A DNA stretch of 64,000 nt from Alcaligenaceae bacterium (GCA_013416405.1 JACCET010000002.1:186001-250000); one strand, 5' to 3'. Shown: positions 8,193 to 25,118, numbered from the stretch's first letter. Translations and numbers: made by a program. The notes: generated by a model not told the origin, from the letters alone.

Positions 8193-8202
8193 GGTGGACT
8201 CC

Positions 8203-9399: not shown

Positions 9400-9473
9400 G
9401 CGGGTGAGCCTGAATGAGCCCCGGGGTGGGGCGCCTGCCAATTAAGAACGCTCGATATTAGCACCAGTCATTG

Positions 9474-9507
9474 AAAAAGGTATTGGTGCCCGATGAACAC
9501 CAATACC
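9474..9507 (-). terminator. Rho-independent terminator of Bug gene
   Basis: Perfect 10-bp arms, GGTATTGGTG (9479-9488) and CACCAATACC (9498-9507), enclose a 9-base loop. On the minus strand the stem is followed by TTTTT. It lies 31 bases past the stop of the Bug receptor gene. Confidence 0.85.
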
Positions 9508-9538
9508 TCGAAATCAAGCCCAGGCTTGTCGCTGGCAA

Positions 9539-10504
9539 TTACTGCTTGGGGATGTCTGCGGCTTTTGCTGCGGCGCCCCAGCGCTCTATTTCGCTGAGCT
9601 GAAATTTGCCCAGCTCTTCAGCGCCGGCGGGAAAGGCGAACCAGTTGGTTCTATCCAGAAACTCCTGGGCTTCCGCCTCTTTGTAGATCTCGACAAAATG
9701 CTCGGACAGCATGTTGACGATGGGCTGAGGCGTACCTGCCGGAGCAAAGGCGGCGGTCCAGTTGATCATATAGTAGTTTTCAGTGCCTGCTTCTTGCAGG
9801 GTGGGTACGTCGGGTACGCTTTTGACACGCTCGTTGCCGGTGACTGCAAGTATGCGCATATTGCCCGACTGCTCAAAGGGTATGACTGCGCCCAGATCGG
9901 CAAAAACAAAGTCCACGTGGCCGCCTGCGAGGTCTGTCAGGGCAGGCGATGCACCCTTGTAGGGAATGAACTCCGCTTTGATGCCGTTTTGCGTCAGGAA
10001 GAGTTCGGTGGCTATGCGATAGGAAGCGCTGCCACCGCCATAGTTAAGCGAGTTGGGGTTGCTCTTGGCCGAGTCCACCAGATCCTGCACCGTTTTGAAC
10101 GGCGAGTCCTTGTGCACCGCAAGCGCCATGGGCCCATACGCCAGCTTGGCAATCGGCGTCAGTTGCTTGACGGGGTCATAGGGCAATTTTTCGAACATGA
10201 CGACGTTGGTCGTGACGGGCGAATTACTTGCAAGCAATAAGGTGTAGCCATCGGGTGCTGCGCTCACCACGGCTTCGGCGGCGATAAAGCTGTTGGCACC
10301 CGGCCGGTTCTCCACCACAACGGGCACGCCAATTCGTTCGCTCAGCTTCTTGGCGGCGTAGCGGGCGTTGGTATCGGTGCCGCTGCCGGGAGGGAAAGAA
10401 ACCACCATGCGTATGGGCTTTTCGGGGTAGGCGGCATTGGCAATGCCTGCCAGGGCCAGGCAAGCGCCGGCGCCTATGAGTATTTTTTTGAATAATGTAT
10501 ACAT
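9539..10504 (-). CDS. Bug-family tripartite tricarboxylate transporter receptor
   Basis: This is a 321-residue periplasmic solute-binding protein. A Sec signal peptide (KKILIGAGACLALAGIANA) ends near residue 24. The mature protein begins with the Bug hallmark YPEKPIRMVVSFPPGSGTD, followed by VVVENRPGANSFIAAEAV. The start has a strong GGAGGATACA ribosome-binding site. Bug proteins capture carboxylates or aromatic acids and are hugely amplified in Bordetella and relatives, often without their TctAB membrane partners, which are also absent here. The gene lies 59 bases downstream of the crotonase gene on the same strand, so the ligand may be the acid degraded by the adjacent CoA-dependent cluster. 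Confidence 0.94.
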   Translation of the reverse strand: MYTLFKKILIGAGACLALAGIANAAYPEKPIRMVVSFPPGSGTDTNARYAAKKLSERIGVPVVVENRPGANSFIAAEAVVSAAPDGYTLLLASNSPVTTNVVMFEKLPYDPVKQLTPIAKLAYGPMALAVHKDSPFKTVQDLVDSAKSNPNSLNYGGGSASYRIATELFLTQNGIKAEFIPYKGASPALTDLAGGHVDFVFADLGAVIPFEQSGNMRILAVTGNERVKSVPDVPTLQEAGTENYYMINWTAAFAPAGTPQPIVNMLSEHFVEIYKEAEAQEFLDRTNWFAFPAGAEELGKFQLSEIERWGAAAKAADIPKQ

Positions 10505-10563
10505 TGTATCCTCCAGGGTTGACCAGCGGGCTTGGTGTAAACCGCGACTGGCTTGTATTTGAA

Positions 10564-11358
10564 TTAAGTACGCGGTTTGGACCGCTTTTCCATGAATGCC
10601 TGAACCGCCTGGGCATGGTCGTCTGATTTGTGGGCCATGGCCTGGAATGCGGCAGACAGCTCCAGCAACGTGTCAAGACGGCTATGCTGCCCTTCGCGAA
10701 GCAGGCGTTTGCTCATGCGTACGGCTTCAGGTGGGTTGGCCGCGATCCGCATGGCAACCTTGCGACTTTCGTTCAGCAGCTCGTCGGCGGGTACGACTTT
10801 CGACACCAGGCCCCACGCATGGGCTTGCTGGGCATCTATCATGTCGCCGGTCAGGGTCATTTCAGCGGCGCGCGACATGCCGATCAAACGGGGCAGGAAC
10901 CAGGCTCCGCCGTCACCCGGAACGATGCCGAGCTTGACGAAGCTTTCAGCGAACTTTGCGTGTTCAGAGGCGATGCGAATATCGCACATGCAGCTCAGGT
11001 CGAAGCCGGCACCGATGGCCGCGCCATTGACTGCAGCGATCGTAGGCACTTCAAGCCGGTGCAGAGCCAGAGGCAGGCGTTGTATGCCTTCGCGGTATTC
11101 ATGGCGCAATGCCATGCTTTCGTATTCGGGTTTAAGCTGGCGCTCCATTTCGTCGATGCTGCCGCCTGACGAAAATACCTTGCCGGCGCCAGTAATGATG
11201 ACTACGCGAGCGGTATGTTCGGTTTCTATGCGATGGAATGCAGCCAGGAACGCATCGACCATGGTGTTGCCCGTCAGTGCATTGCGGGTGGGCGGATAGT
11301 CCATGGTCAGCGTGACTATGCCGTGCTCGTCCTGTTCGAAATGTAGTATTTGATCCAT
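10564..11358 (-). CDS. Enoyl-CoA hydratase/isomerase (crotonase) family
   Basis: This is a 264-residue crotonase-fold enzyme acting on acyl-CoA thioesters. The CoA and oxyanion segments are visible as FSSGGSIDEM and AAVNGAAIGAGFDLS. The two catalytic glutamates of classical enoyl-CoA hydratase are not conserved: by alignment to rat hydratase the first is Asp (GAGFDLSCMCD) and the second Phe (KFAESFVKLG). GIVPGDGGAWFLPRLIG resembles PaaG-type isomerases. It may therefore isomerise or hydrate an unusual substrate. The gene is divergent from the acyl-CoA dehydrogenase operon across a 224-base spacer carrying repeated TTGATAT motifs. Confidence 0.9.
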   Translation of the reverse strand: MDQILHFEQDEHGIVTLTMDYPPTRNALTGNTMVDAFLAAFHRIETEHTARVVIITGAGKVFSSGGSIDEMERQLKPEYESMALRHEYREGIQRLPLALHRLEVPTIAAVNGAAIGAGFDLSCMCDIRIASEHAKFAESFVKLGIVPGDGGAWFLPRLIGMSRAAEMTLTGDMIDAQQAHAWGLVSKVVPADELLNESRKVAMRIAANPPEAVRMSKRLLREGQHSRLDTLLELSAAFQAMAHKSDDHAQAVQAFMEKRSKPRT

Positions 11359-11440
11359 GTCTCGCTCTTTGTAAGTTCTTGCCTAACTAAGTAAGTGTAA
11401 AAGTCTGGATCATGCCTATCCAATATTATTTTTCTTCTCA

Positions 11441-11495
11441 GCGATATATATTTGATATCGCTTGTCCAAAACTCTATTGATATTCAATTGATATC
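11441..11495. promoter_or_regulatory. Repeated TTGATAT motifs, candidate LysR binding sites
   Basis: The AT-rich spacer between the crotonase and acyl-CoA dehydrogenase genes holds TTGATATCG (11452), TTGATATT (11477) and TTGATATC (11488). The first lies in the dyad GCGATAT-N7-ATATCGC (11441-11461). TTGATATCGC recurs just upstream of the LysR gene at 15108, so this is a plausible binding region for that regulator controlling both divergent units. Confidence 0.55.
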
Positions 11496-11582
11496 AGCTT
11501 TCAAACAAATAATATTAGACAGATTGCCAGCTAACCGTTGATAGTAGCGGTCATTATCTGAACAAAACGAGAGCAGACCGCA

Positions 11583-12737
11583 ATGATGATAGCTAAGCTT
11601 GAGCTCACAGAGATTCCGGCCGAAGATGAAGCCTTACGTGCCGAGATTCGCGCTTTCCTTGCGCAGACCGTGGGCCAGCTGGAACCGGATATCCGGGCCC
11701 GTTCCTGGATGGGCTTTGACGCGAATTTCAGTCGTAGCCTGGCTGAGCGCGGCTGGTTGGGTTTGACCTTGCCAGCCCGCTACGGCGGTGCTGACAAAGG
11801 CCCGTTCGCCCGGTTTGTGCTGTCCGAAGAGCTGTTGGCAGCCGGGGCGCCGGTGTCGGCACACTGGATCGCCGACCGCCAAAGCGGGCCGCTCATCCTC
11901 AAGTACGGTACCGAGGCGCAGAAGCAGTTTTATCTGCCCCGCATCAGCAAAGCGGAAGCGTTTTTCTGCATAGGCATGAGCGAGCCGAATTCGGGATCGG
12001 ATCTGGCAAGCATTAAAACCCGTGCCACGCATACCGGGCAAGGCTGGACGCTTAACGGCAGCAAGATCTGGACGACCAATGCGCAGCACTCGCATTACAT
12101 GATTGCCTTGGTGCGTACGTCTGGGGAAGCGGCCGATCGTTACAAGGGTTTATCGCAAATTATTGTCGACCTGAGCCTGCCGGGCGTTACTGTGCGGCCG
12201 ATCAAGGATATGGCCGGCGATGCGCATTTTTCCGAAGTGTTCTTCGAAGACGTGCAGTGTGCGGCCGATGCCTTGATAGGCACCGAGGGCGATGGCTGGG
12301 CGCAAGTCAATGCCGAGCTGGCGTTCGAGCGTAGTGGTCCCGAGCGTTTGTACTCCAGCATGGTGCTGCTGGAAAGCTGGCTATTGCATTGCCGCCAAAC
12401 GGGGGCAAATGATGCGCAAACGGCTGCAGCGCTAGGCACGATAGTATCGTGGCTTGCTGTATTGCGATCCATGTCCATTTCGCTGACTGCCAAGCTGGCT
12501 CGTGGCGAAAGTCCCGCCATAGAGGCAACCCTGGTCAAGGATTTGGGTACAGAAATCGAGCAGGCTATTCCCAGAATTATCGGTGACGTGCTGGGTACCA
12601 CGCCAGATGTCGAAATACCTGCATCTTTGCGTAGAACGCTGGTCTATCTTGAGCAGTTGGCACCTTCGTTCTCGTTGCGTGGCGGTACTCGTGAAATTTT
12701 GCGTGGCATCATCGCACGCGGCCTGGGATTGCGATAG
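11583..12737 (+). CDS. Acyl-CoA dehydrogenase, large subunit-like
   Basis: This is a 384-residue FAD enzyme oxidising an acyl-CoA to the enoyl-CoA. The N-terminal helical domain, the middle beta domain (FFCIGMSEPNSGSDLASIKTRA and WTTNAQHSHYM) and the C-terminal helical domain are all recognisable. The C-terminal site where medium-chain enzymes have the catalytic Glu (YEGT) reads RGGT, so the base must be elsewhere, possibly in FERSGPER. It is followed after 8 bases by a second, shorter acyl-CoA dehydrogenase and then a CoA-transferase, all co-translated. Paired dehydrogenases of this kind often form heterotetramers with composite active sites, as known for actinobacterial steroid side-chain enzymes. 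The substrate is unknown. Confidence 0.92.
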   Translation: MMIAKLELTEIPAEDEALRAEIRAFLAQTVGQLEPDIRARSWMGFDANFSRSLAERGWLGLTLPARYGGADKGPFARFVLSEELLAAGAPVSAHWIADRQSGPLILKYGTEAQKQFYLPRISKAEAFFCIGMSEPNSGSDLASIKTRATHTGQGWTLNGSKIWTTNAQHSHYMIALVRTSGEAADRYKGLSQIIVDLSLPGVTVRPIKDMAGDAHFSEVFFEDVQCAADALIGTEGDGWAQVNAELAFERSGPERLYSSMVLLESWLLHCRQTGANDAQTAAALGTIVSWLAVLRSMSISLTAKLARGESPAIEATLVKDLGTEIEQAIPRIIGDVLGTTPDVEIPASLRRTLVYLEQLAPSFSLRGGTREILRGIIARGLGLR

Positions 12738-12745
12738 GAGCAAAC

Positions 12746-13768
12746 ATGGATAACTTGTTTACAGATTCGGTAGATCGCCTGTTTGCCCAGGCCGTTACGC
12801 CGCAGGTCATACGCGCCATCGAGGCGGGCGGCAGCCGTGATGCGCTTTGGCAGGAGCTGGAAGAGTCCGGGTTTTTGGATGCCTTGTTGCCCGAAGCATC
12901 CGATGGCGCCGGTTTGTCGCTGACAGACGCCTTCCCCCTGTTTTTGTTGGCGGGGCAATATGCCGTGCCCGTCCCCTTTGTGCAGACCATGCTCGCCCGC
13001 GCCTGGCTCAATGCCGCTGGCGTAAAGGCTCCGGCGGGTGCCATCACCATAGCGGCTTTTGGTGTTCGCAAGGATGCACAATCACTGAACGCTGACGCCG
13101 TGCCGTTTGGGCGTGTGGCTGATTGGGTGCTGACGCATAACCAAGACGGGTGCGTGTTATTGCCGGTGGCCGCTGCTCAATCCGTCTCTGTGGCTAGTCA
13201 CGGCAGCCTTAACGCGAACTTGCGCTGGAATCAGTTGCCCGCCGATGCCGTAACGATTGCGCCCGCTGCCTTGCCAGACATCGACCTGGCCGGCCTGGCG
13301 GCGGCAAGCTATGCGCCGTTGCTGGCGGGCGCGGCCAATCGTGTATTGGAACTGACGCTGGATTACGCCAATCAACGTGTTCAGTTCGGTAAGAATATAG
13401 GCCGTTTCCAGGCGGTGCAAAGCCAGATCAGTGTGATGGCTGAACGTACTTGGGCTGCGCGTATGGCCGCAGCACTGGCGTGCCAGGGCAACGGTTGGGC
13501 TCCCGGCCATCTGGGGGCGGCTGTTGGAAAATGCCGGTGCAGCGAAGCGGCGGTTCATGTTGCCGATATCGGTCATGCCGTGCATGGTGCAATTGGAATT
13601 ACCGAAGAGTACGACCTGCAGCTATACACCAGACGCTTGCGGGAGTGGCGTATGGCGGCGGGCACGGAAACCTACTGGGCTGGTCAGATCGGAGCGCGCT
13701 TGTTGCAGCAATCCGGGCACACAGCGCTTTCCTTTATTTGTGCCGAGCTCTCGGCGGTGCAGGCATGA
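12746..13768 (+). CDS. Acyl-CoA dehydrogenase, small divergent subunit
   Basis: This 340-residue acyl-CoA dehydrogenase homologue has a degenerate N-terminal half lacking the clear FAD motifs of its neighbour. The C-terminal half is better conserved: QRVQFGKNIGRFQAVQ and HAVHGAIGITEEYDLQLYTRRL. It starts 8 bases after the larger subunit with AGGAGCAAAC as RBS and ends in an ATGA overlap with the CoA-transferase gene. The arrangement suggests a heteromeric alpha/beta acyl-CoA dehydrogenase in which one subunit supplies part of the FAD or substrate site. It could instead be an independent enzyme on a related intermediate. Confidence 0.88.
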   Translation: MDNLFTDSVDRLFAQAVTPQVIRAIEAGGSRDALWQELEESGFLDALLPEASDGAGLSLTDAFPLFLLAGQYAVPVPFVQTMLARAWLNAAGVKAPAGAITIAAFGVRKDAQSLNADAVPFGRVADWVLTHNQDGCVLLPVAAAQSVSVASHGSLNANLRWNQLPADAVTIAPAALPDIDLAGLAAASYAPLLAGAANRVLELTLDYANQRVQFGKNIGRFQAVQSQISVMAERTWAARMAAALACQGNGWAPGHLGAAVGKCRCSEAAVHVADIGHAVHGAIGITEEYDLQLYTRRLREWRMAAGTETYWAGQIGARLLQQSGHTALSFICAELSAVQA

Positions 13769-14997
13769 GCCATCCTGCAGGCCATAACGATAATCAGCAA
13801 GGCCGGCCGGGGCCGCTGGAAGGCATACGTGTGCTTGACCTTAGCCGGGTTCTGGCAGGTCCATGGTGCACGCAAACCATGGCGGATCTTGGCGCCGAAG
13901 TATGGAAAATAGAGGCACCAGGGCAGGGCGATGACACGCGCACTTGGTTGCCGCCCGATCTGGACGGTGAGTCAACGTACTTCATGTGTACCAATCGCAG
14001 CAAGCAGTCCATGGCGGTCAACTTCAAGCACCCGGAAGGGCAAGCCCTGCTAAGGCAACTGGCACTGCAGGCAGATGTGTTAGTAGAAAACTACCGCTTG
14101 GGTGCGCTGGCAAAGTTCGGGCTGGATTACGACACGCTGTCTGCACTGAACCCGCGCCTGATTTATTGTTCGATATCCGGTTATGGACGCACGGGGCCGC
14201 GGGCTTCCGAGCCAGGCTACGATTTTGTGATTCAGGCCGAGAGCGGACTCATGTCCATTACGGGCGAAGAGCAGGGTGATCCCATGAAGCTGGGTGTGGC
14301 CATCACAGATCTGGTCACGGGCATGAACGCGGTTCAGGCAGTCCTGGCGGCCTTGTTTGCGCGTGAACGCGACGGACGTGGTCAGTTGATAGACTTGGCC
14401 TTGCTTGACGGAGCCGTAAGCGTTCTGGCAAACATCGGCACCGGCTATCTGGCGGCAGGCCATCACCCCGAGCGCTTTGGCAACGGGCATCCCACCGTCG
14501 TGCCATACCAGATCATGTCTACGGCCGATGGCCGGTTTGCACTGGCGGTGGGCAATGACAGGCAGTTTGCCGCCTTGTGCTCAGTACTGGCCTGCCCTGA
14601 GCTTGCCAGTGATGCACGTTATCGTACGAATCGTGCCCGCGTGCTGAATCGAAAGACGCTGATCCCTCGGCTTGAGGGTATTCTGGCAAGCCAGCCCAAT
14701 GCCTATTGGTTGGAAAAAATACGCGCTGCCGGCATCCCGGCAGGGTCGGTGCGTAGCGTTCCCGAAGCGTTGGACGCGCCTGAAATTGCGGCGCGAGGAC
14801 TGATTGCCGATACGCCCGATGCGCGCCATGGCAGCGTTCGTCTGATGCGATCGCCTTTGAATTTGCGTGGCACGCCACCTCGTGCACCGGTGGCACCGCC
14901 ACGCTTGGGCGAGCATACCGAGCACATTCTGCACTCTGTGTTGAATAGCTCACAAGAGCAAATCCAGGCGTGGCGTGACGCCGGAGTGATTGCCTGA
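13765..14997 (+). CDS. CaiB/BaiF (class III) CoA-transferase
   Basis: This is a 410-residue formyl-CoA-transferase-type enzyme that moves CoA between acids through aspartyl-CoA anhydrides. The family start GIRVLDLSRVLAGPWCTQTMADLGAEVWKIE is visible in pieces from residue 20. The catalytic aspartate is expected in PGYDFVIQAESGLM. GQLIDLALLDGAVSVL and the C-terminal PRLGEHTEHIL are also typical. The ATG at 13765 overlaps the previous stop (ATGA), indicating translational coupling; the longer frame from 13450 is spurious. It probably activates the substrate acid to its CoA ester for the two dehydrogenases upstream. Confidence 0.93.
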   Translation: MSHPAGHNDNQQGRPGPLEGIRVLDLSRVLAGPWCTQTMADLGAEVWKIEAPGQGDDTRTWLPPDLDGESTYFMCTNRSKQSMAVNFKHPEGQALLRQLALQADVLVENYRLGALAKFGLDYDTLSALNPRLIYCSISGYGRTGPRASEPGYDFVIQAESGLMSITGEEQGDPMKLGVAITDLVTGMNAVQAVLAALFARERDGRGQLIDLALLDGAVSVLANIGTGYLAAGHHPERFGNGHPTVVPYQIMSTADGRFALAVGNDRQFAALCSVLACPELASDARYRTNRARVLNRKTLIPRLEGILASQPNAYWLEKIRAAGIPAGSVRSVPEALDAPEIAARGLIADTPDARHGSVRLMRSPLNLRGTPPRAPVAPPRLGEHTEHILHSVLNSSQEQIQAWRDAGVIA

Positions 14998-15062
14998 TTC
15001 TGGCCATGATTTGATCCACGGCCTTGATGGTTGTGATGAATGTAATATTGATGTCTATCGTT

Positions 15063-15089
15063 TTGATATGATTTTCGTATTGATATCGC
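15063..15089. promoter_or_regulatory. TTGATAT motif pair upstream of LysR gene
   Basis: TTGATATG (15063-15070) and TTGATATCGC (15080-15089) lie 17-bp apart start to start and 18 bases before the LysR start codon. The second is a ten-base match to the site at 11452. This position suits LysR autoregulation. Confidence 0.5.
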
Positions 15090-15107
15090 ATTCGGGCGCC
15101 ACAAACC

Positions 15108-15992
15108 ATGGATTTCCGTCATCTTAAGCAATTTGTCGTCCTTGCTGAAACCCTTAACTTCCGCAAGGCGGCAGAAAAGCTGCACATGTCTCAGCCGCCG
15201 CTGTCGGTATCCATACGCAAGCTCGAGGCCGAACTCGGCGTAGAGCTGTTTTTGCGTGGAAAAGATGGCGTCAAGTTAACGGAAAGCGGCGAAGCTGCTC
15301 TGGCGGACGCCCGTCGTGCACTGTTCCATGCCGGGCAATTCAAGCAAGCCGCCGTTGCGGCGTCCACCGGCGAAGGCGGAGTTTTACGGGTGGGCTTTGT
15401 GGGTTCGGCCACACACGCGATTTTGCCCGACATTCTGTCGCGGTTCAGGCAGCGGTATCCGAAGGTACAGCTGGTGTTGCGAGAAGCCACCTCGATACGC
15501 ATCGTGCAGGAACTGGCAGACGAGAGTCTGGGTGTGGGTGTGGTGCGTGTGCCGGTTTCCACCGATTCTCGTATACGCTTATTAACTTTGCTAACCGAGA
15601 ACTTTGTACTGGCAATGCCCAAGTCGCATCCTCTGGCGCAACGTCAAACGCTAAGGCTCAAGGACTTGGCCGAGGAAGATTTCATCCTGTATTCGGCGTC
15701 GAACGCGACAGGTTTGCGCATGGCTGCGATCCATGCTTGCCAGTTGGCGGGGTTCACTCCACGGGTAGCGCAAGAAGCGGTACAGGTTCAGACCGTACTT
15801 GGCCTGGTCGAGGCGGGTTTGGGACTTGCGCTGGTTCCATCCATTAGCCGTCGATTCACCAGCAAGCAGTTGGTCTACAAAACCCTCGACGATTTTCCGG
15901 CGAGTGCCTCGATAGGCATTTCTTTGGCCTGGAATCCTTTGACAGACGTTGCGGCTGTCAGAAATTTTCGCAACGTAGCTGCAAAACTGTAG
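15108..15992 (+). CDS. LysR-family regulator of the acyl-CoA cluster
   Basis: This is a 294-residue regulator with the N-terminal winged helix (MDFRHLKQFVVLAETLNFRK, then MSQPPLSVSIRKLEAELGVELF) and a C-terminal LysR effector domain beginning at about residue 90 (LRVGFVGSATHAILPDIL). The resemblance is to BenM/CatR-type regulators of aromatic or carboxylic acid breakdown. It lies about 110 bases downstream of the CoA-transferase gene with its own upstream region carrying TTGATATCGC, a motif repeated in the divergent promoter region of the cluster. It therefore probably activates the acyl-CoA dehydrogenase operon in response to the substrate acid or its CoA ester. Confidence 0.93.
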   Translation: MDFRHLKQFVVLAETLNFRKAAEKLHMSQPPLSVSIRKLEAELGVELFLRGKDGVKLTESGEAALADARRALFHAGQFKQAAVAASTGEGGVLRVGFVGSATHAILPDILSRFRQRYPKVQLVLREATSIRIVQELADESLGVGVVRVPVSTDSRIRLLTLLTENFVLAMPKSHPLAQRQTLRLKDLAEEDFILYSASNATGLRMAAIHACQLAGFTPRVAQEAVQVQTVLGLVEAGLGLALVPSISRRFTSKQLVYKTLDDFPASASIGISLAWNPLTDVAAVRNFRNVAAKL

Positions 15993-16006: not shown

Positions 16007-17068
16007 TCAAGGCAGGTTTTCGTTCAACACCACGCTGATATGCATGGGTTCGACCCCGGCCATGGCATCACGTCCGGCACGAAGATTGGCAAAGATACGC
16101 ACGCTGTTCATGATGGTGGAGTGCAGATTCTGATTCAGCAGTGCATCGAGCGAGCCGTCGACCAGCAGGGCGCGGGTATCGGGTGTTAAGCCGTGCCCGA
16201 TGAAAACCGTATTCTGGTCGCGCCCGGCTTCTTTCAGGGCTTGCGCCACGCCGTCGGATGCACCACCGATGTTGTAGATGCCAACCAGATCGGGGTATTG
16301 CTTGAGCAGTTGTTTGGACTGGCGATAATTGATGCTTGCGTCGTCGTGCCCTTCGCGCAGGCCGACGACGGTCAGGTTGGGAAATTTTTCTTCAAGAATA
16401 TGCTGGAAGCCCATTTCGCGCTCTTCGTGGCCGCGATAGTTGCGGCTGCCCGCGATCATGGCGACTTTGCCTGCGCGCGGCCCGACAAAGCGGCCCATTA
16501 ATAGGCCGGCGCTGCGGCCCGCAGCGCGATTATCCAGGCCAACATAAGCGGCGCGGCGCGAGCTGGACAAGTCTGAAATCAGGGTCAGCGTGTGCACGTT
16601 CTTTTCAGCCAGTGTGTTGACGGCTTCGCGCACCAACGGGTGTTCCAGCGCCATGAAGGCTATGCCATCGGCGCGCCGGCTTTCGCGCAGCAGGCTTTCG
16701 ACCAGTATTTGCGGGTTGAAGCCTTCAATGTAGCGGCATCGACATTGCACGTTGAAGGGTTCGAATTGATCGTGTGCGATGCTGACAAAGTCGCCCAACA
16801 TATTCAGGAAGCGGTTGGTGCCGGCAGGCAACAGAAATACCAACCGCATGGGCTGCGGGCGTAATGCCCGATAAAGATCGTCTTGTGGCAGGTAGCCCAG
16901 ATCGGCGGCTGCTTTCAGCACAGCCTGAACGGTGGCTGGCCTGACGCCTGGCCTATGGTTCAGCACCCGATCAACGGTCGCTGTGGATACGCCCGCGCGT
17001 GCGGCGACTTCGGCGATGCCTATGCGTGATTTTTCGCTGCCGACTTTCATTCCATCATATTCCATCAT
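16007..17068 (-). CDS. LacI-family transcriptional regulator
   Basis: This is a 353-residue regulator. The N-terminal LacI helix-turn-helix and hinge are clear (IAEVAARAGVSTATVDRVLN, then VRPATVQAVLKAAADLGY). A periplasmic-binding-protein-like sensor domain follows from about residue 70 (LRPQPMRLVFLLPAGTNRF). It resembles the branch with ribose/galactose-like sensor domains. It is divergent from the transporter-RuBisCO-like operon, and a perfect 20-bp palindrome lies 22 bases upstream of its start, so it most likely represses that operon and itself until the substrate, probably a sugar acid, is bound. Either ATG at 17068 or one at 17050 could be the start; no strong RBS decides. Confidence 0.92.
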   Translation of the reverse strand: MMEYDGMKVGSEKSRIGIAEVAARAGVSTATVDRVLNHRPGVRPATVQAVLKAAADLGYLPQDDLYRALRPQPMRLVFLLPAGTNRFLNMLGDFVSIAHDQFEPFNVQCRCRYIEGFNPQILVESLLRESRRADGIAFMALEHPLVREAVNTLAEKNVHTLTLISDLSSSRRAAYVGLDNRAAGRSAGLLMGRFVGPRAGKVAMIAGSRNYRGHEEREMGFQHILEEKFPNLTVVGLREGHDDASINYRQSKQLLKQYPDLVGIYNIGGASDGVAQALKEAGRDQNTVFIGHGLTPDTRALLVDGSLDALLNQNLHSTIMNSVRIFANLRAGRDAMAGVEPMHISVVLNENLP

Positions 17069-17089
17069 GTGAATATCTTGCCATCTAGT

Positions 17090-17109
17090 ATGCCTAAAAT
17101 TTTAGGCAT
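17090..17109. promoter_or_regulatory. 20-bp perfect palindrome, candidate LacI operator
   Basis: ATGCCTAAAATTTTAGGCAT is perfectly self-complementary and lies between the divergent LacI gene and the transporter operon. Its right half overlaps a possible -35 (TTAGGC, 17102) that is 17 bases from TAGAAT (17125-17130), so binding would repress the operon. A second dyad, TGATGTTTT-N14-AAAACATCA (17132-17163), lies downstream and could be an auxiliary site. Confidence 0.72.
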
Positions 17110-17258
17110 TGCAATACGTAGATATAGAATTTGATGTTTTCTGTAAACCATCAAAAAACATCATTTTTGAATCTGGACATCAATCAGGCATGCAGCTACC
17201 ATGATCTACCGATAAACAAAAATATGCAGTCGGAACCGAGACAAAACCTGATATCAGC

Positions 17259-17942
17259 ATGAATTACGAATTCGATTTTTCATCCGTATTGGCCCAATGG
17301 CCAGTGTTCCTTGAAGGAGCCTGGCTGACCATACAGCTGTCGGTTCCGGCCACGATAGTGGGTCTGGTACTAGGTACGCTTTTCGCCATAGGCCGGCGCA
17401 GCACCATACGTTCGCTTTCCCGGTTCTGCGGTTTCTATGTCGAGATCGTGCGCAACACACCTTTCCTGGTGCAGATATTTCTGGTCTTTTTTGGCATGGC
17501 CAATCTGGGTTGGAGAGTCTCGGCATTTGCGGCGGGTTTGCTGGCCCTGATCATTAACGTTGCAGCATATACCTGCGAAATCATGCGAGCAGGCATGGAC
17601 TCGGTTCATCCAGGGCAGATCGAGGCCGCCGAATGCCTGGGGCTGACGAAAAGACAGGTTTACTGGCATGTTATTTTGTTGCCGGCCATGGAAAAGGTCT
17701 ATCCCGCCCTGACCAGCCAGTTTGTGCTGCTGATGTTGGCCTCATCCATTACGTCGCAGATCTCGGTCGAAGAGCTGACGGCCGTCGCCAGCCGGGTGCA
17801 GTCCGAGACCTTCCGCCCCTTCGAAGCCTATATTCTGGTAGCCGTCGTCTACCTGGCGCTGTCGCTGCTGATGCGTATAGGCATGTGGGGATTCGGGCAG
17901 TTGGTGTTTGCTCGTCGTCGCCGTTTGAAGACTACAGGGTGA
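17259..17942 (+). CDS. Polar amino acid-type ABC transporter permease 1
   Basis: This is a 227-residue inner-membrane permease of the HisM/GlnP (PAAT) family with about five hydrophobic segments. The early segment WLTIQLSVPATIVGLVLGTL and the EAA loop (GQIEAAECLGLTKRQVYWHVILLPAM) that docks the ATPase are clear. It is the first gene of the operon, 150 bases from the operator palindrome, and is followed after 4 bases by a second permease. PAAT transporters normally import amino acids or opines; the downstream enzymes here point to a sugar-acid-like substrate. Confidence 0.93.
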   Translation: MNYEFDFSSVLAQWPVFLEGAWLTIQLSVPATIVGLVLGTLFAIGRRSTIRSLSRFCGFYVEIVRNTPFLVQIFLVFFGMANLGWRVSAFAAGLLALIINVAAYTCEIMRAGMDSVHPGQIEAAECLGLTKRQVYWHVILLPAMEKVYPALTSQFVLLMLASSITSQISVEELTAVASRVQSETFRPFEAYILVAVVYLALSLLMRIGMWGFGQLVFARRRRLKTTG

Positions 17943-17946
17943 AGCC

Positions 17947-18618
17947 ATGATATCCGGTGGATTTACATACGCGCATTTCGAGTTCCTGCTGCAAGGTGCG
18001 GTCTGGACGATATGCCTATCGCTGATCGCCTTTATCGGCGGCGGGGTGGCCGGCGGCATAGTAGCCTTGCTGCGCATCAGCTCCATGGCTCCGGTCAGAT
18101 GGCTGTCTTATCTTTATGTGCAGGTGATACAGGGCACACCGTTGTTGGTGCTGCTGTTTGTGGCGTACTTCGGTTTGAGCATAGCGGGCCTGACCCTTAC
18201 GGGTCTGGCCGCAGCCGGCATTGCAATGGTGATTTATGTCAGCGCCTATCTGGGTGAAATATGGCGTGGCTGCATAGAGTCGGTTGCCAAAACCCAATGG
18301 GAAGCAGCCGAGTGCCTGGCACTGTCGCGCAGCCAGCGCATGCGCCTGGTCATTTTGCCGCAGGCCATGCGTATTGCCACGCCGCCCACGGTGGGCTTCA
18401 TGGTGCAAATCGTCAAGAACACCTCGCTGGCTTCCATAGTGGGCTTTGTGGAGCTGGTGCGGGCCGGGCAGTTGATCAACAACTCCATTTTCCAGCCCTT
18501 CCTGGTCTATGTCTTGATAGCGCTGTTTTATTTTGCGATGTGCTATCCCTTGTCGGTGTGGAGCCGCAAGCTCGAACGCAAGCTTCAGTACGGCGCACGT
18601 TCCACACTGAGCGCATAA
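17947..18618 (+). CDS. Polar amino acid-type ABC transporter permease 2
   Basis: This is a 223-residue partner permease of the same family. Its N-terminal segment reads FLLQGAVWTICLSLIAFIGG, and the EAA loop is TQWEAAECLALSRSQRMRLVILPQAM. It forms the membrane channel with the preceding gene as a heterodimer, to judge from the tight spacing and similar topology. The ATPase gene begins 11 bases downstream. Nothing in the sequence indicates the ligand. Confidence 0.93.
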   Translation: MISGGFTYAHFEFLLQGAVWTICLSLIAFIGGGVAGGIVALLRISSMAPVRWLSYLYVQVIQGTPLLVLLFVAYFGLSIAGLTLTGLAAAGIAMVIYVSAYLGEIWRGCIESVAKTQWEAAECLALSRSQRMRLVILPQAMRIATPPTVGFMVQIVKNTSLASIVGFVELVRAGQLINNSIFQPFLVYVLIALFYFAMCYPLSVWSRKLERKLQYGARSTLSA

Positions 18619-18629
18619 AAGGAAAAACT

Positions 18630-19358
18630 ATGTCGATAGTGGTTGAACTGAAAGACGTTCATAAAAGCTTTGGCGCCAACCAAGTGTTGAAAGGCGTGTC
18701 GTTTGAGGTTGCCAAGGGGCAGGTCGTGGCCATCATCGGGCAAAGCGGCTCAGGTAAAAGCACGGCTTTGCGTTGCATAGACCACCTGGAGGTCATCGAT
18801 CAGGGGCAGATCAATGTATGCGGGCATCGCGTGCACGATGACGGGATCAACCTGCGTTCGTTGCGTACCGACGTGGGCATAGTCTTTCAAAGCTACAACC
18901 TGTTCCCGCATCTTACGGTTGCACAGAACGTAATGCTTGCTCCGCGCGCGGTCAAGAAAAAGTCCAAGGAAGAAGCGCTGGCTATCAGCAACCGCACCCT
19001 GAAGCAGGTGGGCCTGCTGGAAAAAGCGGATGCCTATCCCGAGCAGCTCTCGGGCGGACAGCAACAGCGCGTCGCGATTGCACGGTCATTGGCCATGGAG
19101 CCCAAGGTCATGCTGTTCGATGAGGTCACGTCGGCGCTGGATCCGCAACTGACGGGGGAAGTCCTACGTGTTATCGAGCAACTGGCCGCCGAAGGTATGA
19201 CTATGGTGCTGGTTACCCATGAAATGGAGTTTGCGGCAAAAGTGGCCGACACCATTATCTACATGCACCAGGGCAAGGTCTGGGAAACGGGCAGCGGCGA
19301 GATGCTGCGCAAGCCGCAGACGGCCGAATTGCAGGAATTTCTGGCGTTTGGGCTGTGA
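18630..19358 (+). CDS. Polar amino acid-type ABC transporter ATPase
   Basis: This is a 242-residue nucleotide-binding subunit. Walker A is GQSGSGKST (near residue 38), the Q-loop is FQSYNLFPHLTVAQNV, the ABC signature is LSGGQQQR and Walker B is VMLFDEVTSALD; the switch histidine is in VTHEMEFA. The ATG at 18630 follows AAAGGAAAAACT and gives the family N-terminus, so the long upstream frame from 18261, which runs antisense-like through the permease, was rejected. It powers uptake through the two permeases upstream. Confidence 0.95.
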   Translation: MSIVVELKDVHKSFGANQVLKGVSFEVAKGQVVAIIGQSGSGKSTALRCIDHLEVIDQGQINVCGHRVHDDGINLRSLRTDVGIVFQSYNLFPHLTVAQNVMLAPRAVKKKSKEEALAISNRTLKQVGLLEKADAYPEQLSGGQQQRVAIARSLAMEPKVMLFDEVTSALDPQLTGEVLRVIEQLAAEGMTMVLVTHEMEFAAKVADTIIYMHQGKVWETGSGEMLRKPQTAELQEFLAFGL

Positions 19359-19417
19359 ACACAGCGCTACGCCTTTTTTACGTGACATCACTTTATGCTA
19401 GAGCAACGGAGACAATC

Positions 19418-20215
19418 ATGAAACTGAAAAAAATACTATCCCTGGGTACGCTGGCGCTGTGCCTGGGTGCCTTTACCGGCGCGGCTTCAGCCGATGCGCT
19501 GGCCGATATCAAAGCGGCCAAGAAAGTGCGGGTCGGTATCGATCTGGGTGCGCCTTTTTACGGCTATATCGATGGGAAAATGCAGGCGGTCGGTTCCGAC
19601 GTCGAGGCTGCGAAATTGCTGGCCGAAGATCTGGGCGTTGAACTGGAAATTGTTCAAACGACCAACTCTGCACGCATTCCCAATCTTCTGTCGAACAAGG
19701 CCGATCTGATCATTTCGTCACTGTCCATTACGCCAGAACGTGCCAAGGCGGTTGATTTTTCGATTCCTTACGGCGCCATTCAGGCAGCGGTTGGCGCGCC
19801 CAAGAGCCTGGATATCAAGGGCATGGATGACCTGGCCGGCAAGTCGGTTGCGGTGACCCGTGGCGGGCCGCAAGACAAGCTGGTTTCTGAAGGCGCGCCC
19901 AAAGCCAAGGTCGTACGCTTTGACGACGAGGCCGCTTCCATCACAGCCGCTGCTACCGGACAAACCGATATCGTGGCAATTACGCCACCCATTATCAGCG
20001 CCATCAGCAAACGCAATCCCGAGCGCGAGTTCGAGGTCAAGTTTGTCATTCAGTCTTATCAACTGGGTGTTGCCATGCGCAAGAACGAGCCGCAACTGAA
20101 GGAATGGGTTAATGAATGGATACGTACCAATCTGAAGAATGGCAAGCTTAACGACATTCATGTGAAGTACGCCGGCGTGCCTATCCCCGAAGAAATCGTA
20201 CAAGGCACCAACTGA
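19418..20215 (+). CDS. Periplasmic receptor, amino acid-type (SBP_bac_3)
   Basis: This is a 265-residue solute-binding protein. A Sec signal peptide (KKILSLGTLALCLGAFTGAASA) ends near residue 24. The mature domain shows the SBP_bac_3 pattern: VRVGIDLGAPFYGYIDGKMQAVGSDVEAAKLLAEDLG in outline, then DLIISSLSITPERAKAVDFSIPY, where the arginine normally clamps an alpha-carboxylate. The ATG at 19418 (AACGGAGACAATC upstream) is preferred to 19355, which lies in the end of the ATPase gene. It delivers the ligand to the permeases. A carboxylate-bearing ligand is suggested by the conserved Arg and by the enzymes downstream. Confidence 0.94.
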   Translation: MKLKKILSLGTLALCLGAFTGAASADALADIKAAKKVRVGIDLGAPFYGYIDGKMQAVGSDVEAAKLLAEDLGVELEIVQTTNSARIPNLLSNKADLIISSLSITPERAKAVDFSIPYGAIQAAVGAPKSLDIKGMDDLAGKSVAVTRGGPQDKLVSEGAPKAKVVRFDDEAASITAAATGQTDIVAITPPIISAISKRNPEREFEVKFVIQSYQLGVAMRKNEPQLKEWVNEWIRTNLKNGKLNDIHVKYAGVPIPEEIVQGTN

Positions 20216-20292
20216 TAGTCGGCTATATGGAAGCAAGCCCGCCATGTCGCATGATAGGCGTTCAGTCGGGCCACTAATCTTTAGGAACAGGA

Positions 20293-20832
20293 ATGAGCAA
20301 GTTTTTTGGCGAGATTCGTCAGTTGGGTTATGTCGTCAAGGATATCGAGGCGGCCATGGAGTACTGGAGCAACACCTTGGGTGTCGGCCCCTGGTATTAC
20401 AACCCCAAGGTGCCTATCAAGAATTACCGCTATCGCGACGAAATCTACGAGCCGCATAATTCCGTGGCGCTGGCCAATTCAGGTTTTGTGCAGGTCGAGC
20501 TGATTCAATGCCGCAACGACGTGCCATCGATGTACCGCGATTTCCTGCAGGCCGGCAACACCGGTTTGCAACACGTGGCTTACTGGACGGAAAGCTATGA
20601 CAACGATCTTGCCAGGCTGGTGGCGCAGGGCTTTCGCCCGGTCATGAGCGGTGAAGTGGGCGAGCGCGGGCGCTTTGTGTACTTCGATACCGAATATCAC
20701 CCGGGTACGGTCATCGAACTGTCGGAAGTGGCCGGGCCCAAGGGCAAGCTGTTTGACCTGATCCGCAATGAGTCGCAAGAATGGGATGGTCACGATCCCG
20801 TGCGTGCTTTCCCCGATCTGAGCACACTGTAG
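20293..20832 (+). CDS. VOC-fold (glyoxalase-like) protein
   Basis: This is a 179-residue vicinal-oxygen-chelate protein with two beta-alpha-beta-beta-beta units. It begins like methylmalonyl-CoA epimerases (LGYVVKDIEAAMEYWSNTLGVGPW). The metal-ligand positions read Q10, E69 (QVELIQ), H94 (LQHVAYW) and E142 (TVIELSE), compared with His, Gln, His and Glu in methylmalonyl-CoA epimerase, so a metal site is retained but altered. It has AGGAACAGGA upstream of the start. Lying between the receptor and the RuBisCO-like gene, it may epimerise or isomerise an intermediate of the same pathway. The actual reaction is not deducible. Confidence 0.85.
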   Translation: MSKFFGEIRQLGYVVKDIEAAMEYWSNTLGVGPWYYNPKVPIKNYRYRDEIYEPHNSVALANSGFVQVELIQCRNDVPSMYRDFLQAGNTGLQHVAYWTESYDNDLARLVAQGFRPVMSGEVGERGRFVYFDTEYHPGTVIELSEVAGPKGKLFDLIRNESQEWDGHDPVRAFPDLSTL

Positions 20833-20883
20833 CCTGCTCACAGGCCCCGACTTCCTGAATATGTCCTACTTTTGCGCACACCT

Positions 20884-22152
20884 ATGAATTCAGAACGCTT
20901 TCATGCCACCTATCTAATAGAGACCCCTCTGGATCCAGCCAAGGTGGCGAATGTCATGGCCGGGGAACAGTCTTGCGGCACGTTTACACGAGTGCATGGC
21001 GAGACCGATGAGTTGCGGGAACGGGCCCGCGCAACCGTAGAGCAGCTGGACGTGCTGGATGTGTCAGATAGCCCTGCGCTGCCTAATGCCTGGCTGGACA
21101 GGCAAGGCAACAAAGGGCCCTGGCAGCGTGCCAGGGTGCGCATTTCCTTCCCGGTGGACAATATCGGAGCCAATCTGCCCACGCTGGCGTCTACGGTAGC
21201 AGGCAATCTGTACGACCTGGGCGAGACCACGGGCATGCGCCTTGAAACGCTGCATTTACCCGCCGCCTATCGCCAGCGCTTTGACATGCCCAGGCACGGG
21301 GTGGCCGGTACGCGCCGCCTGGCCGGTGTGGAACAAGGCCCTTTGCTGGGTACCATCATCAAGCCCAACGTTGGCTTGTCGCCGGCTCAGACAGCCGAGT
21401 TGGTCGGGCAGCTATGCCAGGCTGGCGTTGATTTCATCAAAGACGATGAAATCTGTGCCGACCCGGTGCATGCGCCGTTGGCCGAGCGCGTGGCCGCCGT
21501 GATGGCGGTGGTGCGCGAGCATGAGCAGCGCATCGGCAAGGCCGTCATGGTGGCATTCAATATCACCGACGAAACCGATGCCATGCGTCGCCATGCCGAG
21601 TTGGTGGAGCGCGAAGGTGGCAGTTGCGTCATGGTCAGTCTTAATTATTGCGGGTACTCTGCGGTGCAGACCTTGCGCCGCAGTACCTCTCTGGTTTTGC
21701 ATGGCCACCGCAACGGCTACGGCGCCATGGCGCGTCATCCCTTGCTGGGTATTTCGTTTCAGGCCTACCAGACGCTTTGGCGTCTGTCCGGTGTCGATCA
21801 CATGCACGTTCATGGCCTGCAAGGCAAGTTTTCCCAGGAAGATCAAGAGGTCGTGGACTCGGCTCGTGATTGCCTTGCGCCGCTGGCCGACGGACTTGAC
21901 GACCAGGTCATGCCAGCATTTTCATCCGGGCAGTGGGCGGGTACGGTGCCGGCCACATTCGATGCCGTAGGCAGCGATGACTTGCTGTTCATGTCGGGTG
22001 GCGGCATATTGGCCCACCCCGATGGTCCTGCCGCCGGGATAGTCAGCTTGCGCCAGGCCTGGAGCGCGGCCCACAGCGGCGTGCCGTTATCCGACTACGC
22101 CGTGAACGCGCCGGAATTGCGTCGCGCGCTGGAATTCTTCGGCGGCAGGTAA
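20884..22152 (+). CDS. oiaX: RuBisCO-like protein (RLP), candidate OiaX
   Basis: This is a 422-residue form-IV RuBisCO homologue. Key active-site positions are retained: K160 in GTIIKPNVGL (RuBisCO K175), the carbamate motif K186-D188-E189 in DFIKDDE (K201, D203, E204), H275-R276 in HGHRNG (H294, R295), K315 in a loop-6-like GKFSQE, and SGGG at 371. The N-terminal domain is divergent, so CO2 fixation is not expected. RLPs next to DUF1537 kinases are known to act on 3-oxo-isoapionate 4-phosphate in D-apiose breakdown (OiaX), cleaving off or hydrolysing a carboxyl unit. The DUF1537 kinase follows after 4 bases. The symbol is tentative because the wider gene context differs from the described clusters. 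Confidence 0.85.
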   Translation: MNSERFHATYLIETPLDPAKVANVMAGEQSCGTFTRVHGETDELRERARATVEQLDVLDVSDSPALPNAWLDRQGNKGPWQRARVRISFPVDNIGANLPTLASTVAGNLYDLGETTGMRLETLHLPAAYRQRFDMPRHGVAGTRRLAGVEQGPLLGTIIKPNVGLSPAQTAELVGQLCQAGVDFIKDDEICADPVHAPLAERVAAVMAVVREHEQRIGKAVMVAFNITDETDAMRRHAELVEREGGSCVMVSLNYCGYSAVQTLRRSTSLVLHGHRNGYGAMARHPLLGISFQAYQTLWRLSGVDHMHVHGLQGKFSQEDQEVVDSARDCLAPLADGLDDQVMPAFSSGQWAGTVPATFDAVGSDDLLFMSGGGILAHPDGPAAGIVSLRQAWSAAHSGVPLSDYAVNAPELRRALEFFGGR

Positions 22153-22156
22153 GCGC

Positions 22157-23482
22157 ATGGCGCGGCACAAAACCCGACTGGCTTTCTACGCCGACGATTT
22201 CACCGGCGCAACCGATACCTTGTCGACGGTAGCCCGCGCCGGTTATCGCAGCATGTTGTTCCTGCGCCTGCCGACCAGCCGGCAATTGCACGATGCCGGT
22301 GCGCTGGATTGTCTGGGTATTGCGGGTGCTGCCCGTTCCATGCACGAACCAGAGCAAGTCGCGGAGCTGGAGTCGGCGGGTCGGTTCTTGCGCGAAGTGG
22401 GCGCAAGCGTTACGCATTACAAAACCTGCTCCACCTTCGATAGTTCGCCTGACACGGGCAGCATAGGCCGTGCCGTTCAGACGTTGCGCAAGCAACTACG
22501 GCCGGTGCAGTTTATGCCCATAGTCGGGGGGCAGCCCAATCTGGGTCGATACTGTGTGTTCGGCAATCTGTTCGCGGCCTTTCGTACGGGGGACGCGGCC
22601 TTTCGCCTGGATCGCCATCCCACCATGAGCCGGCATCCCGTGACGCCCATGCACGAGGCCGATCTGCGCCTGCATCTGGCACAGCAGGGGCTAGAGCAAG
22701 TCGGTTTGGTGGAATATCCCGCCTATGCATTGGCACCGGCGCAATTCCATGCCTTGTTGGATCAGACCATTACCGAACATCCCGACGGCGTTCTGTTTGA
22801 CGTGGGGCAGTCCGAGCATCTGGCCACGGTGGGCCAAGCCATCTGGCGGCATGCCCGCAATCAGCCGCTGCTGGCCGTTGGGCCCAGCAGCGTGGCCCAG
22901 GCGCTCATTGCGCATTGGAATGAATCCGGCAAGGGCGCTGCGCAAGCTCAGGCTCACGCCATGGTGTCAGCGCAAGACCCCGTCTTCGTCATGTCGGGCA
23001 GTCGCTCACCCGTGACGGCGATGCAAATCGCAGCCGCGAACTCTTATGAGCGCATCCCCATGAATGCGGCACTTTTGTGTGCAGGGGCGGGCGATGCCTA
23101 TGACGCCCTGCTGGGCCAGGTCGTGGCCGGTTTGGCTGGGGGCAGGCATGTGCTGACCTACGTGGCCGACGAGCCGCAGCAGGCGCGCCCGGTTGCGGCA
23201 TCCGTTTTGGCTCAGGCTTGCGGGCGCTTCCTGGCTCGGGTGCTGGTGCAAGGCCGGCCGGCCAGGGTGGGCGTCGCCGGCGGTGATACCTCCAGCCTGG
23301 CATTGAAGTCGCTTGATGTATGGGGTTTGTCGTATATGGGCCAAGTGGATCCGGGGGCAGCTCTGTGCCGCATGCATTCTGATCTTGACTACCTGTCGGG
23401 CGTGGAAGTCATGCTCAAGGGCGGGCAAATGGGTTCGGAGCAGGTATTCGAGAAACTGATTGCGCCCGATCGGGCATGCTAG
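22157..23482 (+). CDS. oiaK: DUF1537 four-carbon acid sugar kinase, candidate OiaK
   Basis: This is a 441-residue two-domain kinase of the DUF1537 family, which phosphorylates tetronate-type and branched acid sugars with ATP. The N-terminal substrate domain has YADDFTGATDTL (residues 11-22) and HYKTCSTFDSSPDTGSIG around K89. The C-terminal nucleotide domain has the glycine-rich GVAGGDTSS and KGGQMG motifs. It is translationally close to the RuBisCO-like gene (4-base gap). Known partners are PdxA2, class II aldolases or RLPs; with an RLP the described substrate is 3-oxo-isoapionate. The start is the ATG at 22157. The family assignment is secure and the exact substrate is inferred. Confidence 0.88.
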   Translation: MARHKTRLAFYADDFTGATDTLSTVARAGYRSMLFLRLPTSRQLHDAGALDCLGIAGAARSMHEPEQVAELESAGRFLREVGASVTHYKTCSTFDSSPDTGSIGRAVQTLRKQLRPVQFMPIVGGQPNLGRYCVFGNLFAAFRTGDAAFRLDRHPTMSRHPVTPMHEADLRLHLAQQGLEQVGLVEYPAYALAPAQFHALLDQTITEHPDGVLFDVGQSEHLATVGQAIWRHARNQPLLAVGPSSVAQALIAHWNESGKGAAQAQAHAMVSAQDPVFVMSGSRSPVTAMQIAAANSYERIPMNAALLCAGAGDAYDALLGQVVAGLAGGRHVLTYVADEPQQARPVAASVLAQACGRFLARVLVQGRPARVGVAGGDTSSLALKSLDVWGLSYMGQVDPGAALCRMHSDLDYLSGVEVMLKGGQMGSEQVFEKLIAPDRAC

Positions 23483-23518: not shown

Positions 23519-24352
23519 ATGCTTAGGTGGCTTGCGGGGCGTGGCGCCTCTTCCCGAAAAGTATCGAACGAACTGGCGAAAATCTCTTCTGATACCTGGC
23601 AAACGGTGGTTGGTGGCCTGCCTTTTCTGGCCGGTCTGACACCCCTGGAAAACCAGGCACTGCGCCATCGGGCGGCATGGTTGTTGGCCAGCAAGAATTT
23701 CAGCGGCGCGCAAGGGCTGGTGCTGACGGATCAGATCATGCTCTCGATTGCCGTGCAGGCCGCATTGCCTGTGCTCAATCTGAACCCCACCTTATACGAA
23801 GGCTGGATAGATATCATTGTCTATCCTGGCGGGTTCGTGACGCCACGAGTTGAGGTCGATGAAAGTGGTGTCGTGCATGAGTTCATGGCTGAAGCCAGTG
23901 GCGAGGCATGGGAAGGCGGGCCTGTCATCCTGTCCTGGGAAGACGCTGGCCCTGGTCGTGGGCAAGCCGATAATGTGGTCATTCATGAGTTTGCACACAA
24001 GCTGGATCAATACGGCAGCGATATCGATGGCATGCCCAACCTGGCCACTCATCCACAGCTGAACCCCCGTCAGTGGAGCAGAGTGCTGGATGAGTCGCTG
24101 GAGGCATTCAGCCAGGCGCTCGATGCGGTGGAAGCCGCTATACCGGGCGATGTCGATCCCGAATCCGAAGAAGGACAGGTCTGGTTCGATAGCTTGCCGC
24201 TGGATCCTTATGCGGCTACGGACGAGGCCGAGTTTTTTGCTGTTAGCTCGGAGGCCTTTTTTGTAGACCCGCAGCGGCTGGCCAGCGGCTTGCCGCAATG
24301 GTATGCCCTGTTGATGCAATACTATCAGCAAGACCCGCTGCGCAGGCTGTAG
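23519..24352 (+). CDS. mtfA: M90 zinc metallopeptidase MtfA
   Basis: This is a 277-residue cytosolic zinc peptidase. The zincin motif HEFAH is at residues 156-160, with H156, E157 and H160 directly visible; a downstream Glu in DEAEFFAVSSEAFF is the expected third ligand. N-terminal features WQTVVGGLPFLAGLTPLE match the family. In E. coli MtfA (YeeI) is an aminopeptidase that binds the glucose-PTS regulator Mlc; there is no evidence of that partner here. The gene lies 36 bases after the kinase gene but probably has nothing to do with that pathway, since mtfA is widespread and its neighbours vary. Confidence 0.92.
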   Translation: MLRWLAGRGASSRKVSNELAKISSDTWQTVVGGLPFLAGLTPLENQALRHRAAWLLASKNFSGAQGLVLTDQIMLSIAVQAALPVLNLNPTLYEGWIDIIVYPGGFVTPRVEVDESGVVHEFMAEASGEAWEGGPVILSWEDAGPGRGQADNVVIHEFAHKLDQYGSDIDGMPNLATHPQLNPRQWSRVLDESLEAFSQALDAVEAAIPGDVDPESEEGQVWFDSLPLDPYAATDEAEFFAVSSEAFFVDPQRLASGLPQWYALLMQYYQQDPLRRL

Positions 24353-24359
24353 CTAGGGC

Positions 24360-25118
24360 CTAGCCGCGTCCGACGAACGGCATTTTTGTGGCCATAACGG
24401 TCATGAACTGTACATTGGCATCCAGCGGCAGACTGGCCATGTAAAGCACGGCGTTCGCAACGTGCTCAACATTCATCAAAGGTTCAGGCCGGGTCGAGCC
24501 GTCGGCCTGCAGCACGCCACGGCCCATGACTTCGGTCATCTCGCTCGCGGCGTTGCCGATATCGATCTGGCCGCAGGCAATATCATATTTGCGCCCGTCG
24601 AGCGAAGTGGCTTTGGTCAGCCCTGTGATGGCATGCTTGGTTGCTGTGTACGAGACGGCGTTGGGGCGCGGCGCATGGGCTGAAATAGAGCCATTGTTGA
24701 TGATGCGGCCGCCTTGCGGCTGCTGTGCCTTCATCAGGCGAAAGGCACCTTGCGTGCATAGAAAGGCACCGGTCAGGTTAATGTCGACGGCCGCCTTCCA
24801 TTGCTCGTACTCCAGTTCTTCGAGCGAGACCGAGCGGGCAAATATACCGGCATTGTTGAACAACAGGTCAAGCCGGCCAAAGTGTTCCGAAATCTGTTCG
24901 AAAAGGTGTTGAACCGCGGCGGGGTCGCTGACGTCGGCGGGCACGACCAGTGTGCGAACGCCGTGTGCCTGAGCCTGCTGCGCCGTGGCTTCCAGGGGTT
25001 CTGTTCTTCGCCCGGTCAGCGCAACGCAGTAGCCCGCGCCGGCCAGCGCCAGGGCGATGCTTTTGCCTATGCCTGAGCCCGCGCCGGTAATCAGTGCGAA
25101 TTTTTCCTGTGTACTCAT
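24360..25118 (-). CDS. Short-chain dehydrogenase/reductase
   Basis: This is a 252-residue classical SDR. The cofactor motif [10 protein letters not shown] is at residues 11-20 and NNAG at 88-91. The catalytic residues are S144, Y157 and K161 in the pattern S-x12-Y-T-A-T-K. The sequence after the active site ([13 protein letters not shown]) departs from the usual PGxV/IxT loop. The gene is convergent with mtfA and stands alone. It is a possible oxidoreductase for the acid-sugar locus just upstream, but its opposite orientation and the intervening mtfA make that speculative. Confidence 0.92.

Follow-up and report, generated by a model that had tools for sequence, protein, structure and literature searches.

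A conserved operon joining a VOC-fold protein to a distinct RuBisCO-like protein and a DUF1537 kinase in Alcaligenaceae: a putative route of sugar-acid catabolism

Introduction

Which compound would a bacterium degrade with an operon that joins a RuBisCO-like protein (RLP) and a DUF1537 acid-sugar kinase to an amino-acid-type ABC transporter and a VOC-fold protein? This question is raised by positions 16007-23482 of a 64,000-nt stretch of the genome of an Alcaligenaceae bacterium (GCA_013416405.1 JACCET010000002.1:186001-250000; the whole stretch that was analysed is hereafter called the window), in which a divergent gene for a LacI-family regulator faces, on the opposite strand, genes for two permeases, an ATPase and the receptor of a polar-amino-acid-type (PAAT) ABC transporter, followed by those for the VOC protein, the RLP and the kinase. 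We consider, with a probability of roughly 0.6, that this operon, under LacI control, serves the catabolism of one class of sugar acids or oxo-sugar acids, which would be imported, isomerised or epimerised by the VOC protein, phosphorylated by the kinase and cleaved by the RLP. The operon is real, conserved and apparently uncharacterised, a variant on the theme of the acid-sugar pathways that employ an RLP and a DUF1537 kinase.

Several known systems provide points of comparison. Tetronate catabolism by OtnK, OtnI and OtnC, reportedly described by Zhang and colleagues in 2016, shares the logic of combining an isomerase with a DUF1537 kinase, whereas the operon has the VOC protein and the RLP in place of OtnI and OtnC. 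Adjacent genes for an RLP and a DUF1537 kinase are found in D-apiose catabolism with OiaK and OiaX (Carter et al. 2018, cited in PMC6302742), but the operon contains no apionate oxidoisomerase (ApnO), lactonase or apiose dehydrogenase, and adds the VOC protein and LacI. An RLP also participates in the D-hamamelose pathway of Ochrobactrum, an acid-sugar catabolism that leads to 3-phosphoglycerate and glycolate (Kim et al. 2018, cited in PMC8914248); going by the description in the citing article, that locus is surrounded by hamamelose-assimilation genes, none of which is seen here.

Results

Open reading frames, together with Pfam and NCBIfam assignments, bear out the arrangement that the initial annotation had read from the sequence, namely, seven same-strand genes separated by short intergenic gaps and facing the LacI gene (16007..17068, minus strand; Pfam LacI and Peripla_BP_4). 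This arrangement is far beyond chance. One RLP scan of the GTDB contigs returned 333 relatives, the best 80 of which were read as loci, and every sufficiently long locus among these 80 retains the order of divergent LacI, transporter, VOC, RLP and DUF1537 kinase, with the LacI orthologue in the same place. Across 151 Alcaligenaceae genomes, the VOC and RLP genes (at thresholds of at least 64% and at least 62% identity, respectively) co-occur in the same 42 and, by their coordinates, are adjacent every time. Thus, the impression of an undescribed operon holds, and the search for conserved co-occurrence that accompanied it recovers a recurring gene order in which VOC and RLP always stand side by side. 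The module is carried on named plasmids of Azospirillum, Alloyangia, Sulfitobacter, Neorhizobium, Paracoccus and Roseomonas, that is, among Rhodospirillales, Rhodobacterales and Rhizobiaceae. A minority of relatives include an SDR gene within the operon (L038, L043, L064, L069 and Neorhizobium), and in four early-branching VOC operons (L168, L170-L172) a LysR gene takes the place of LacI.

The RLP (20884..22152, plus strand; likely start ATG 20884) matches the RuBisCO_large model (PF00016) with 229 bits and belongs to form IV of the RuBisCO superfamily, possessing the large-chain domains, the carbamylation Lys and the metal ligands. In alignments, the equivalents of RuBisCO K175, K201, D203, E204, H294, R295, H327, K334 and S379 are kept, and Asn replaces K177, the second Lys in the KPK motif, a change that would be consistent with no CO2 fixation. 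All the RLP clades retain the RuBisCO-type catalytic residues, the carbamylated Lys and its Asp and Glu among them. Against NF042437, the model of OiaX (3-oxo-isoapionate-4-phosphate decarboxylase), the protein scores 433 bits, below the curated cut-off of 700, whereas genuine OiaX proteins reach 772-789 bits. In the maximum-likelihood tree, the VOC-associated RLPs form a clade of their own (100/99), apart from both the OiaX clade (100/100) and the RLPs adjacent to ApnO. The latter, which we treat together with the OiaT-type branch of apiose catabolism (e.g., L146, L153, L173, L176 and Shinella L204), are about 50% identical to the window's RLP and usually have an adjacent DUF1537 kinase; the VOC clade, by contrast, lacks ApnO. 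The loop residues follow the same division: KPN, HVHG and LNwCG in the VOC-linked clade, KPS, HVNG and LNSVG in the ApnO-linked RLPs, and KPA, QING and INSIG in OiaX. A near-orthologue of the window's RLP (693 bits) is present in the Protein Data Bank as 3nwr, an entry titled 'A rubisco-like protein', the source of which we take to be Burkholderia fungorum and for which, to our knowledge, no function has been reported.

The kinase (22157..23482, plus strand) is a member of the DUF1537, or four-carbon acid-sugar, kinases, with an SBD_N domain (175.8 bits) and an NBD_C domain (88.2 bits), and its score against NF042436, the model of OiaK (3-oxo-isoapionate kinase), is 302 bits and lies below the cut-off of 700. 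In the kinase tree, the kinases of the VOC operons separate from OiaK in the same split as the RLPs, except for those of the LysR-bearing L168 and L170-L172, which group with the other side in this quick, midpoint-rooted tree.

It had been conceded in the initial annotation that a known pathway might simply have been rearranged, which would place the RLP and the kinase within the characterised OiaX and OiaK clades and the rest of the apiose pathway elsewhere, with the same transporter type. The trees built with OiaX and OiaK put both proteins in separate clades, and ApnO was not found in the bacterium's own genome (G000) or in two others (G415, G531), although the same query matches the positive-control genomes G404, G528 and G347. 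OtnI and OtnC were likewise not found beside the kinase, so that the reported absence of other tetronate enzymes is correct for this locus; it does not extend to the genome, where a classical tetronate cluster (contig C44, L230) encodes a DUF1537 kinase, a class II aldolase, a hydroxypyruvate-isomerase-like protein and a dehydrogenase, all named by sequence reading without a family scan. Thus, the tetronate role is already filled, and this separate cluster, along with the lack of ApnO in the genome, argues that the operon is no rearranged apiose or tetronate pathway. As judged by sequence, it appears distinct from both. An SDR orthologue was also sought in this genome, and only paralogues of at most 36% identity were found.

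The VOC protein (20293..20832, plus strand; Glyoxalase_4) is a methylmalonyl-CoA-epimerase-like, putative isomerase or epimerase. Its AlphaFold model (pLDDT 91) finds its closest solved fold in 3gm5 (Z 17.3), followed by methylmalonyl-CoA epimerases at Z of about 13; the score against the methylmalonyl-CoA epimerase model TIGR03081 is 27.7 bits, below the cut-off of 114.95, even though the folds are alike. Residues Q10, Q67, E69, H94 and E142 are invariant and, by motif, Q10, Q67, H94 and E142 would occupy the expected metal positions. Paralogues with 46-52% identity (L224-L228) are encoded in different gene clusters, alongside cupin, SDR, LacI and Bug-type receptor genes, a hint that the catabolism of oxo compounds may draw on a broader VOC subfamily; the neighbours of the distant VOC paralogues gave no fix on the VOC reaction.

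Between LacI and VOC, the window encodes two PAAT permeases (17259..17942 and 17947..18618, both plus strand; BPD_transp_1 and HEQRo_perm_3TM), a GlnQ-like ATPase (18630..19358, plus strand, likely start 18630; ABC_tran), for which the best NCBIfam model is GlnQ at 297 bits, under the cut-off, and a family-3 solute-binding protein with a signal peptide (19418..20215, plus strand, likely start 19418; SBP_bac_3). The same variant is found in L001, L002, L011, L020, L053, L055, L068, L071, L073 and L076-L078; elsewhere, this slot is occupied mostly by a TRAP transporter with a fused permease, or by another TRAP transporter. The RLP tree requires no fewer than 8 changes of transporter type, with VOC, RLP and kinase staying the same; the transporter is an exchangeable cassette, PAAT here and TRAP in most relatives. 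The polar-amino-acid-type importer singled out in the initial annotation is therefore present in this genome but is not a fixed part of the system.

In family-3 amino-acid receptors, an Arg binds the carboxylate and an Asp binds the alpha-amino group of the ligand. Alignment to the Thermotoga Arg-binding protein and AncCDT-1 shows that the window's receptor keeps the Arg (TPER) and has lost the Asp to Thr (VAITPP), and this Thr is invariant in 18 orthologues, so that the Arg and Asp pair of a polar amino-acid receptor is incomplete. Given this replacement, a carboxylate without an alpha-amino group appears likelier as the ligand than an amino acid, which also fits the replacement of PAAT by TRAP transporters. 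As an exchangeable cassette with a receptor that has lost the Asp, the importer does not, by its type, point to a ligand resembling an amino acid. The common TRAP receptor most resembles 4oan (Rhodopseudomonas palustris RPB_2686), with 61% identity in the part that aligns; the modelled ligand of 4oan we tentatively take to be 2-acetolactate, a C2-branched 3-oxo acid. For the TRAP receptor itself, AlphaFold gives a poor model (pLDDT 58). TRAP receptors with about 60% identity also lie beside an acyl-CoA ligase, with no RLP, in L206-L210, all from one, probably Bradyrhizobium-like, family.

In the intergenic region between LacI and the transporter, k-mer enrichment detected a candidate operator, CATCAAAAAACATCA (17149..17163, no strand assigned), a 10-bp direct repeat of the form CATCA-N5-CATCA. 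With at most one mismatch, the repeat is present in 86 of 90 LacI/transporter intergenic regions, a count inflated by kinship among the loci, versus 1.8% of shuffled regions, and it is common to loci with all three transporter types, PAAT and TRAP alike. A search of the loci for palindromic operators found none common to most of them, and a genome-wide search for further operator copies that might mark missing pathway genes found only unrelated sites, with one mismatch each.

Downstream of the operon, the window encodes an MtfA-like M90 peptidase (23519-24352) and an SDR (24360-25118); both are near the operon in L001, the SDR is also found in L162 (81%), and neither was seen elsewhere. Three Alcaligenaceae genomes carry RLP copies with one in-frame stop beside an intact VOC gene (G401 C1:4315148, G405 C1:1789502 and G532 C9:336012), possibly reflecting operon decay. 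Other variants of RLP pathways came to light as well: in L179 (9379-17722), a single operon holds an RLP, a DUF1537 kinase, a BKACE-like protein, two SDRs and a TRAP transporter, and in L175 (9250-15751) the RLP is followed by a phytanoyl-CoA-dioxygenase-like protein, a TRAP transporter and a DUF1537 kinase. Haloarchaeal plasmids encode RLPs that are 48-51% identical to that of the window (H28, H30, H37, H44 and H46-H48).

Discussion

Taking the chemistry of OtnI/OtnK/OtnC and of ApnO/OiaK/OiaX as an analogy, we propose the following route. A carboxylate would enter through the exchangeable transporter; the VOC protein, presumably metal-dependent, would move either a proton, in the isomerisation of a 2-oxo to a 3-oxo acid or in epimerisation at C2, or the carbon skeleton, and so give rise to a 3-oxo acid; the DUF1537 kinase would phosphorylate the terminal hydroxyl of this acid; and the RLP would enolise and cleave the phosphorylated product, by decarboxylation or by an OiaT-like hydrolysis, yielding a phosphorylated compound of central metabolism. 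A dehydrogenase might be supplied from elsewhere, and the SDR in the operons of some relatives would perform the oxidation. Such a succession of import, VOC catalysis, phosphorylation and RLP cleavage, first put forward in the initial annotation, is still the best reading of the locus; the substrate, the order of the steps and the exact chemistry of the RLP are what we infer. Tentatively, and somewhat short of even odds, the three enzymes (VOC isomerase, DUF1537 kinase and RLP lyase) might make up an undescribed pathway for a sugar acid not so far known among the carbon sources of bacteria, and the RLP might catalyse a reaction, or use a substrate, unreported for the RuBisCO superfamily.

Several observations weigh against this route. 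Most of the operons, including that of the window, encode no dehydrogenase, so that the pathway may be incomplete or may start from a compound that is an oxo acid from the outset. The VOC protein could act after the RLP, for instance, as a product epimerase. In L154 (G185, 8082-15366), the LacI, TRAP and VOC genes of this operon are combined with an RLP and a kinase from the ApnO-associated clade, a pair that was swapped jointly, so that VOC and RLP do not strictly constitute one specificity unit. Finally, proteins about 60% identical to the TRAP receptor, its nearest relatives, are encoded beside acyl-CoA ligases as well, which makes the clue from 4oan a weak one.

The alternative that fares best, albeit unlikely on balance, is that the substrate is a C2-branched acid, such as apionate, isoapionate or a relative, with the VOC protein catalysing the alpha-ketol shift, which is the isomerising half of the ApnO reaction, an SDR performing the oxidation and the RLP acting like OiaX or OiaT. 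Indeed, the RLP clades closest to the VOC-linked one accompany ApnO, an SDR is found inside some operons, L154 unites the VOC gene with the RLP and kinase of the ApnO clade, and the TRAP receptors resemble 4oan, the presumed ligand of which is C2-branched. However, the KPN, HVHG and LNwCG loops of the VOC-clade RLPs are unlike those of OiaX and the ApnO-clade RLPs alike, neither a lactonase nor an apiose dehydrogenase was seen in the loci, relatives of the VOC fold transfer protons rather than shift carbon, and 4oan-like receptors serve acyl-CoA-ligase loci too. It is less probable still that a 3-oxo acid is imported as the substrate of the kinase and the RLP, with the VOC protein coming last and epimerising a chiral ketose phosphate released by the RLP, in place of the EryH-like epimerases. 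No epimerase is needed if the RLP yields 3-phosphoglycerate, as reported for the hydrolysis by OiaT, even if the methylmalonyl-CoA-epimerase-like fold and the lack of any other product-processing enzyme in the operon would suit such a role; that VOC immediately precedes RLP and kinase at every locus says little on the order of the reactions. Catabolism of an amino acid or opine, imported as an amino-acid conjugate by the PAAT receptor, is very improbable, for, despite the transporter type and the Arg at the carboxylate site, the 18 orthologues invariably have Thr in place of the amino-binding Asp, most relatives use a TRAP carboxylate transporter, and the operon encodes no aminotransferase, oxidase or hydrolase.

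Returning to the route through import, VOC, kinase and RLP, the module, preserved in full in scores of bacteria that live in soil, in association with plants or in the sea, probably serves to take up an acidic sugar and to degrade it by means of the RLP. The known functions of RLPs are few, and each has revealed new enolate chemistry; the VOC-linked clade is widespread and has constant partners. Because the structure of the near-orthologue 3nwr is known, the substrate is directly testable. Should the proposed route prove true, a reaction would be assigned to this VOC subfamily, and a PAAT receptor would be shown to be re-purposable for sugar acids.

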